DNA from: Chloroflexota bacterium | GTDB lineage: Bacteria > Chloroflexota > Dormibacteria > Dormibacterales > Dormibacteraceae | Reading direction: 5' to 3' | DNA length: 38,507 nucleotides | Assembly (NCBI GenBank): GCA_005880945.1 | Contig: VBIU01000054.1 | Span: 1-38,507, forward strand | Shown here: in pieces, positions 13,767-15,832 of the stretch | Layout of the letters: every line of letters begins with the position of its first letter | Numbering within the stretch: position 1 is the stretch's first letter | The notes under the pieces: model-generated | Database searches by the model: none | Seen by the model: only the letters and a program-made list of their open reading frames with translations | What the model was told of the DNA's origin: nothing | Made by a program: the position numbers and the translations under genes

Positions 13767-14486
13767 ATGGACCGCAGGCTTAGAGGAACGGCGCCGCGCA
13801 CCGGCCGCTTCCAGATGGCGGTCGTCGAGTGGCTCGACAACCGTTTCTCCTTCGTCGAAGCAGTTGACGCGGAGCTGTACCGGCGGGTGCCGAACTACGC
13901 GACGGCCGTCTATCGCTACCTGGGCGGCTTGGCGGCGATCATCGTGGTGATCGAATTCGTGTCCGGCTTCCTACTTGGCATCTACTACATCCCGGACGGG
14001 AACGGTCACCCCGCGCCTGCGTTCACCAGCGTCGACTTCATTCAGCACGCCGTCTACCTAGGCTGGCTGATGCGCGGGATTCATTTCTGGGGAGCGAGCC
14101 TCCTGATCATGGTCGCGCTTCTGCACATGACTTTCGTCTTCTGGACCGGGGGCTATCGCGCGCCTCGCGAAATCAACTGGATGGTCGGGGTTGTCATCTT
14201 CCTCATCGTCCTTGCTTTCAGCCTCACTGGTTCGCTCCTTCCGTGGGACGTGAACTCTTACCTCGCAAGGGGACGCGAGCTGTCGATCCTGTCCGGAGCA
14301 TCCGCTCTTCCCAGCGGCGTCAGCGGATTCATCAAAGACCTGCTGCAAGGCGGACCGATCGTCGGCCCTCCAACTCTGCTTCGGTTCTATATGGCGCATG
14401 TTTTTCTGCTGCCGGCCGTGATGACCGCGCTGATGTATTTTCATTTCCGGTTGGTTCGCCGCCAGGGTCCATCGGAGCCGACGTGA
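13767..14486 (+). CDS. Cytochrome b6-like protein (N-terminal half of cytochrome b)
   Basis: A 239-residue membrane protein with four main transmembrane helices, matching the dihaem half of a split cytochrome b. The haem ligand pairs are His106/His120 (13 residues between) and His211/His226 (14 between). The latter spacing is b6-like, since bc1 has 13. The ARGRELSILSGASALPSG region replaces the quinol-site helix region of standard enzymes. AGGAG about 9 nt upstream supports the ATG at 13767. It overlaps the subunit IV gene by 4 nt. No Rieske protein or cytochrome c gene is visible on either side, so the complex partner must lie elsewhere. Confidence 0.88.
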   Translation: MDRRLRGTAPRTGRFQMAVVEWLDNRFSFVEAVDAELYRRVPNYATAVYRYLGGLAAIIVVIEFVSGFLLGIYYIPDGNGHPAPAFTSVDFIQHAVYLGWLMRGIHFWGASLLIMVALLHMTFVFWTGGYRAPREINWMVGVVIFLIVLAFSLTGSLLPWDVNSYLARGRELSILSGASALPSGVSGFIKDLLQGGPIVGPPTLLRFYMAHVFLLPAVMTALMYFHFRLVRRQGPSEPT

Positions 14487-15124
14487 AGGCACCCGGGCCG
14501 CTTGAGCTGCCACGTGAAGCCGACGACGGCAAGGCCGATGAGCGGTCGACCGGCGGCACGCGTGTCGAGCCTGGCCATCCTCTCTACCCGCTGTTTGCGC
14601 TTATCGCTCTGACCGGCATCGTTTTCGGGCCCACTGGCCGCCAGGTCGTCGACGATATGCCGGAGCGCGACACGCATTCGTACTTCCCCGACCACTTCTG
14701 GCCGTACCCGATCCTGGCGATGGGAGCTCTGGTCACTCTCGGTCTGCTTGCGCTCATCGGCCAGCCGGTGCTTCAGACCACGCAGTCAGCCGATCCTCGA
14801 ACGGCGGAGATCCCGCATCCAGACTGGTATTTCCTCTTCCTGTTTCAGCTGCTGAAGCTTGGACCCCAGGTGATCACGGCCATCGTGATCCCGACGGCTG
14901 CAGTCCTGGGGCTCCTCGCCTGGCCGATCATCGACTCTCAACTCGGTCCTCGGCTCGCGCGGCGACTTGGCTGGCGATCCTGGCCGGTGCCGGGGCGGAA
15001 TGTAATCACTGGAACACTATGGTTGGCCGGCCTGGGAGCAGTTGGACTCTTGACCTTATGGGCGCTGCTCGGCCCCGGTGCCTGTATCCCGTGGTTTTAC
15101 AACGGCTCCGTCTGCGCGGGTTGA
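14483..15124 (+). CDS. Cytochrome b C-terminal half (subunit IV-like) with PDWY motif
   Basis: A 213-residue protein corresponding to cytochrome b6f subunit IV, with three transmembrane helices. It starts at a GTG overlapping the stop of the b6-like gene (GTGA). The Qo-site motif is PDWYFLFLFQLLK in place of PEWY. PDWY is known from complexes that oxidise low-potential quinols such as menaquinol. The first 35 residues are hydrophilic. The C-terminus has a final hydrophobic segment and a Cys-containing tail (GACIPWFYNGSVCAG) that may face outside. Together with the upstream gene it forms a split cytochrome b. Confidence 0.85.
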   Translation: MKAPGPLELPREADDGKADERSTGGTRVEPGHPLYPLFALIALTGIVFGPTGRQVVDDMPERDTHSYFPDHFWPYPILAMGALVTLGLLALIGQPVLQTTQSADPRTAEIPHPDWYFLFLFQLLKLGPQVITAIVIPTAAVLGLLAWPIIDSQLGPRLARRLGWRSWPVPGRNVITGTLWLAGLGAVGLLTLWALLGPGACIPWFYNGSVCAG

Positions 15125-15202: not shown

Positions 15203-15832
15203 TCACGACGGGGTCTCGTCCTCGCGCAGGCGATCCAGCACCTGCTTGAAGTTTTCGTAGGGATGTGCGCCGACCACCAGGTACCGCTGTCCGAAGATGT
15301 GCGCCGGAATCGCGTTGATTCCAACCGACTCCGCCTGGCGGCGGCTGTCGTCGAGCGTCCCCTCGAAGCGCCCCAGCTCGACCGCCGACCTCAGCTCCAC
15401 TGGATCGAGTCCTACCTCCATTCCGATGCGCACGAGATCGTCGACCACCTCGAGCATTCCCGTGCCCTCCCAGTGGGCCTTGAAGAGCGCTCGATGCATC
15501 TCTTCGAACTTACCGTGCTCGCGTGCGAACTCAGCGGCGCCGAGCGCCTTGCGCGAGTTGATGATCACGTCGCGCTGCCTCATGACGAGGCCCACCTCCT
15601 CGGCGATGGTGTCGAGGCGGCTTCGCATCTGCTCTGAGCGGGCGCTCCCGAAGTACGTCTCCCGCGGTATGCCCTCCGGCGGCGCCTCGGGATGCAGCTC
15701 GTACGGAAGCCACGTGAGGCGAACGAGCCCTTCGTTCTCCAGGCGCTCGACTCGGACCGAGTCGATGTAGCACCAGGGTCAAACGTAGTCGGAGAAGACG
15801 ATCAGGTCCGTGGGCGCCCCTGTCTCTGTCAC
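15203..15832 (-). CDS. DsbA/FrnE-family thioredoxin-fold oxidoreductase, probable selenoprotein (TGA at residue 18)
   Basis: Read through one TGA, the reverse strand encodes 209 residues of a FrnE-type DsbA protein. The active site reads FSDYV-TGA-PWCY, where relatives have CPWC, so the TGA (15781-15779) sits exactly on the first catalytic cysteine and would give U-P-W-C. The helical insertion (about 60-160) follows, then the cis-proline loop SVGINAIPAHIFG (Pro about 176) and the VVGAHPYENFKQVLDRL end. Homology on both sides of the TGA is continuous and in frame. A stem-loop right after the TGA matches a bacterial SECIS. Such proteins catalyse thiol-disulfide or related redox reactions. The GTG at 15832 is the only plausible start and has a weak ribosome site. 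A Cys-to-stop mutation is the alternative. Confidence 0.82.
15747..15765 (-). promoter_or_regulatory. Candidate bacterial SECIS hairpin after the in-frame TGA
   Basis: On the transcribed strand an 8-bp perfect stem (TCGACTCG with CGAGTCGA) closes a GTC loop. Counted as a 7-bp stem, the GGTCC loop gives a guanine at its first two positions, as in E. coli fdhF, where the loop holds GGUC. The loop begins about 20 nt after the TGA, within the 16-37 nt range reported for bacterial SECIS elements. The stem lies inside coding sequence, directly behind PWCYI. Confidence 0.7.

Follow-up and report, generated by a model that had tools for sequence, protein, structure and literature searches.

Bacterial DsbA-like proteins with a UxxC active site include a member of COG2761 reported in 2005 from the Sargasso Sea (PMC1088965), a COG to which D. 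radiodurans frnE (DR0659) also belongs (PMC1978522). The DsbA-like selenoprotein of the GOS set goes by the name "DsbA 1" (PMC2398784), further ones occur in sequenced bacteria, Anaeromyxobacter, Desulfovibrio, and Desulfotomaculum among them (PMC1794560), and the table of a 2026 review lists a "DsbA-like protein form 1" (PF01323, UxxC) (PMC13188914). FrnE proteins are predicted to be cytoplasmic; the D. radiodurans protein uses NADPH and thioredoxin reductase in the reduction of DTNB, and mutants in frnE show sensitivity to oxidative treatment (PMC8945050). Under the names that we searched, we found no literature on selenoproteins of Dormibacterota.

The DNA analyzed here (the window) is a 38,507-nucleotide stretch, contig VBIU01000054.1, from a Chloroflexota bacterium of the Dormibacteraceae (GCA_005880945.1). 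A sequence-only reading had placed at 15203-15832 a probable selenocysteine (Sec) DsbA/FrnE oxidoreductase, noting that UxxC thioredoxin-fold selenoproteins are common; the UxxC FrnE/DsbA-like proteins are themselves already a known selenoprotein family (PMC1088965). The coordinates were correct, and the strand, which had been left unstated, is minus. As judged from sequence comparison, this gene with an apparent stop is a working selenoprotein gene, the stop being decoded as Sec at the predicted active site.

Reading frame, active site, and conservation of the TGA

The features of the locus are as follows.
15203..15832, minus strand: predicted selenoprotein gene, DsbA family/FrnE-type (COG2761-like) oxidoreductase (from the frame, PF01323, and homologues)
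15832-15830 and 15205-15203, minus strand: start GTG and stop TGA, respectively, of the frame read with TGA as a residue
15779..15781, minus strand: in-frame UGA, putative Sec18, with which the U-P-W-C active site begins (from homologue conservation)
Residue 21: Cys21, putative resolving Cys of the UPWC active site
15747..15765, minus strand: predicted bacterial SECIS apical hairpin, 7-bp stem and 5-nt loop GGUCC (15758-15754)

With TGA read as a residue, the frame from 15832 to 15203 encodes 209 amino acids, with one internal TGA (codon 18) and a terminal TGA. The GTG at 15832-15830 is the sole ATG, GTG, or TTG upstream of the Sec codon in this frame. Translation around codon 18 gives VTETGAPTDLIVFSDYV-U-PWCYIDSVRVERL... 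and, over a longer stretch, VTETGAPTDLIVFSDYV-U-PWCYIDSVRVERLENEGLVRLTWLPYELHPE... As the sequence-only reading had noticed, the single internal TGA (15781-15779) stands at the first Cys of a CPWC motif, and homology of the FrnE type continues on both sides of it. Cys homologues have TGC or TGT there. The Pfam DSBA domain (PF01323) matches without a break across the TGA from residue 10 to residue 199 (E=1.6e-26; 93.7 bits versus a cut-off of 25.6), a score above the gathering threshold that assigns the protein to the DsbA family. The closest PDB sequences retrieved by phmmer were D. radiodurans FrnE (5cnw and 5cp1; E=2.7e-16) and Streptomyces SCO1869 (3gl5; E=2e-11), and their CPWC aligns exactly with U18-P-W-C21. 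No hydrophobic stretch precedes the first strand, as read from the sequence, and hence no signal sequence was recognized; together with the 5cnw alignment, this fits the FrnE subfamily (cd03024/COG2761), with its CP(W/F)C in a cytoplasmic DsbA-like domain. The translated protein contains no Cys besides Cys21 and lacks the C-terminal CX4C motif common, though not universal, in FrnE; since some FrnE members also lack CX4C (PMC8945050), its absence does not exclude membership. Under the standard code, the open reading frame of this gene shrinks to 141 amino acids from an ATG at 15628, which annotation pipelines blind to Sec would take. Standard-code annotation would thus shorten the gene or label it a pseudogene, an outcome that the Sec reading corrects.

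TGA at codon 18 is shared by all eight of the nearest homologues in our contig search (55-81% identity), whose sources are MAGs of Dormibacterota or of soil "Chloroflexi". When 42 genomes of the family were searched in six frames, 32 gave a match, and TGA occupies codon 18 in 30 of the 31 with a readable site; in a further genome (G006) the matches were fragmentary and none spanned codon 18. The 31st readable copy (L138, G042:C358) carries a one-base slip exactly at TTGACC-TGG, with one C fewer than its relatives, which is either an assembly error or a true frameshift. Of 201 genomes sampled from the phylum, 34 yielded matches at E<=1e-25; 24 new loci were read, and each of the 23 that span the site has TGA, even where identity drops to about 33-35%. 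Because the query given to the alignment programs had Cys at position 18, the six-frame search offered TGA forms no advantage. The same TGA is thereby found in about 50 homologues, with coding conserved over the full length on both sides, and its presence in independent assemblies excludes a sequencing error in the present one. Farther homologues from other phyla and some from Chloroflexota have TGC or TGT at codon 18. Our first homologue list had given the impression that Cys forms dominate beyond the closest clade, in part through search bias, as the peptide patterns included CPWC; contrary to that list, the six-frame search of the phylum yielded mostly TGA forms. Several Sec homologues (L137, L139-L141, and L154-L161) have UPFC instead of UPWC.

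The hairpin downstream of the UGA

In bacterial Sec decoding, SelB on a hairpin loop brings Sec-tRNA-Sec to the UGA. A hairpin with a G in its apical loop, as expected of a bacterial SECIS, lies directly 3' of the UGA of codon 18. Its sequence, UCGACUC-GGUCC-GAGUCGA, forms a stem of 7 bp, to which the window sequence can add a G-C closing pair; the hairpin claimed by the sequence-only reading is real. With the U of UGA as nt 1, the two sides of the stem are nt 17-23 and nt 29-35. The hairpin begins 13 nt past the UGA and the loop G 21 nt past it, in agreement with the earlier estimate of about 20 nt, and homologues show GGU, GGG, or CGU in the apical loop.

A 61-nt segment folds at -25.9 kcal/mol versus a mean of -18.8 for shuffled sequences (z=-2.3), a modest difference taken alone. 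It is the comparative evidence, not this single-sequence value, that is decisive for a SECIS. Like the TGA, the hairpin persists in Dormibacterota and Chloroflexota homologues to identities of about 33-35%. Across 39 distinct Sec sequences, pairing holds for 94.5% of the cells in the stem, and 38 keep either all seven pairs (29 sequences) or six of them (9 sequences); several of the unpaired cells stem from one divergent sequence (L175) whose hairpin is displaced by one base. The covariation score reached 0.333 versus 0.159 in shuffles, a value attained in 0 of 500, with 26 doubly changed cells versus 4.4 and compensatory pair types at two pairs; these shuffles ignore the kinship of the sequences, which is retained in a control where sliding the stem partner by 1-3 columns lowered the paired cells to 21-50%. 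In most Cys homologues, 2-5 of the 7 stem pairs survive, and the mean MFE of nt 13-40 is -10.3 kcal/mol in Sec forms versus -4.9 in Cys homologues (p about 2e-13, nominal given that the sequences are related). Codon entropy at conserved residues of the family falls to its gene-wide minimum around codons 15-29, a reduction in synonymous variation that an RNA element overlapping coding sequence should produce. The check on homologues proposed with the sequence-only reading therefore came out in its favor, with TGA in 8/8 of the closest and a stem both conserved and covarying.

Two Cys-form (TGC) homologues, L034 and L044, keep all seven stem pairs. These may be candidate relict SECIS elements left after recent Sec-to-Cys replacement.

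Selenocysteine machinery and rival readings

The machinery on which the sequence-only reading counted is present in the genome as far as selA, selB, and selD are concerned; tRNA-Sec is not in the draft, and it is in 18 of 24 family relatives. On contig C173, selA (494 bits) adjoins selB (360 bits), and selD (359 bits), with a TGA-bearing motif GAG-UGA-ACK, is on contig C79; all three score over their curated cut-offs. TGA also occupies the Sec site in two genes for formate dehydrogenase (...NVDSCNRT-UGA-HAPSVAGL... and ...NQARI-UGA-HSSSVPGL...). We take the TGA sites of these two genes and of selD to be known Sec sites (a Sec/Cys site in SelD). Together with the FrnE-type gene, they bring the genome to at least four UGA-containing selenoprotein genes. 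The second formate dehydrogenase-like gene, likewise with a Sec-site TGA, was matched in several pieces on a 4,887-nt contig (G000:C231, L149).

Rfam searches and a tight pattern satisfied by the tRNA-Sec of the same-genus genome G001 detected no tRNA-Sec in the 93%-complete draft. One Rfam match above the cut-off (G000:C216, 47.9 bits) was rejected, as ARAGORN identified it as tRNA-Ser(gct). Neither Rfam at a loose E-value nor ARAGORN found tRNA-Sec beside or within selA/selB on C173, and the window holds no tRNA genes. Strong tRNA-Sec matches (about 67-75 bits) are present in the 18 family relatives just mentioned, G001 included, and ARAGORN read the anticodon as UCA at all 12 loci tested (11 of this family, the twelfth of the same class). 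In G001 the gene occupies L113:5260-5355. The only contig of the present genome that matches L113, C143, starts at the equivalent of L113:5497, 142 nt beyond tRNA-Sec, so that the gene would fall just outside the contig end. The absence is thus probably best explained as a gap in the draft assembly.

The conserved TGA, the covarying hairpin, and SelA/SelB/SelD bear out the earlier proposal that the TGA encodes Sec18, and on these grounds we regard the UGA at codon 18 as almost certainly decoded as Sec. Were it instead a nonsense mutation from Cys to stop in a pseudogene, translation might restart downstream, e.g., at ATG 15628, where the 141-residue standard-code frame does start. Such a mutation would hardly recur at the same codon in about 50 homologues whose coding sequence is conserved in full on either side, nor does it fit the RNA-level constraint on the hairpin or a genome endowed with Sec machinery and three further UGA-containing selenoprotein genes; the conservation makes this explanation extremely improbable and, for practical purposes, refutes it. 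A genome-wide reassignment of UGA (e.g., to Trp or Gly) would likewise leave the frame open at codon 18. Yet the gene's own last codon is TGA, its homologues stop close to that position with TGA, TAA, or TAG, and many other open reading frames of the window end at TGA stops. Since, moreover, the UGA aligns with a catalytic Cys, not with Trp or Gly, and is accompanied by a SECIS, we grant reassignment a vanishingly small likelihood.

Another way to a full-length product would be insertion of Cys at the UGA by selenium-free read-through, or a regulated Sec/Cys mix, either of which would yield mainly a CPWC enzyme. The lack of a visible tRNA-Sec in the present assembly and the occurrence of Cys forms of the FrnE-type family in Chloroflexota lend themselves to this idea. 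It is nonetheless very unlikely in view of the presence of selA, selB, and selD, the maintained SECIS, and the contig break that accounts for the missing tRNA-Sec, a gene widespread in the family and with the anticodon UCA wherever tested.

Evolution, proposed role, and relation to known systems

In a maximum-likelihood tree of 102 rows, with some long branches and unsure deep joins, the window gene belongs to a clade of 37 rows, all of them Sec forms (support 100/99), and the tree as a whole gives about six changes between Sec and Cys. By these searches, the predicted selenoprotein family is spread widely through the lineage of Chloroflexota and Dormibacterota. We incline to the view that the FrnE-type oxidoreductases of these bacteria constitute a selenoprotein lineage of long standing in which Sec and Cys have been exchanged repeatedly, and the breadth of which is perhaps unreported. 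Alongside formate dehydrogenase and SelD, a family of soil Dormibacterota almost certainly has Sec in a disulfide oxidoreductase that is probably cytoplasmic. With so many Sec and Cys homologues in a single phylum, some of which bear what looks like a relict SECIS, the group lends itself to studies of Sec/Cys replacement. In Candidatus Mesolinea (DICP01000006.1), a second DsbA-like open reading frame (L036:2828-3451) with TGA at the first Cys (UVWC) adjoins a Cys-form FrnE homologue, and the sister record L032 has TGT at that position; these could be another case of closely related genes that differ in Sec versus Cys.

By analogy with the known bacterial mechanism, SelB would bind the hairpin loop and Sec-tRNA-Sec with its UCA anticodon would be delivered at the UGA, yielding a full-length 209-residue FrnE-type product that is probably cytoplasmic. 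Sec18 would then act as the N-terminal nucleophile attacking substrate disulfides or oxidized thiols, Cys21 might resolve the mixed selenenylsulfide, and a thioredoxin-type donor might re-reduce the enzyme. Given that there is neither a signal peptide nor a second CX4C, our best guess is a cytoplasmic reductase or isomerase served by such a donor. A role in cytoplasmic thiol/disulfide reduction or repair thus seems somewhat favored, as extrapolated from distant FrnE homologues (phmmer E=3e-16). The neighboring genes in the window, cytochrome b on one side and lactate permease on the other, provide no functional hint. The cytochrome b region (13767-15124, plus strand) comprises an N-terminal half at 13767-14486 and, in another frame, a stretch resembling the C-terminal half (PDWYFLFLFQLLK), and may represent either separate subunits like those of b6/IV complexes or the result of a frameshift. 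A phage origin was considered and rejected, as phage matches were distant only (about 30% or less).

Among the named systems, the NF041057 family (Rcas_1661 thioredoxin-like (seleno)lipoprotein, DsbG-like) shares a partial C-terminal similarity with the present protein at 42.8 bits, far under the curated cut-off of 190 bits, and we rejected membership. The putative DsbA oxidoreductase SCO1869 of Streptomyces belongs to the same family (3gl5; E=2e-11) but is a Cys form and distant. D. radiodurans FrnE (DR_0659; 5cnw, 5cp1) has in common with our protein the DsbA-like thioredoxin fold, a CP(W/F)C motif aligned with UPWC, and a predicted cytoplasmic location, whereas the latter has a predicted Sec for the first Cys and lacks the C-terminal CX4C. 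The DsbA-like selenoproteins of the Sargasso Sea, the GOS set, and the review, to which we liken it by description, share with it PF01323, Sec for the first Cys of CxxC, and a bacterial SECIS just downstream. The 2005 and 2008 sets are of marine metagenomes, while the present clade is one of Dormibacterota/Chloroflexota and includes UPFC variants. The window gene is, therefore, a well-supported new member of a selenoprotein family known since 2005.
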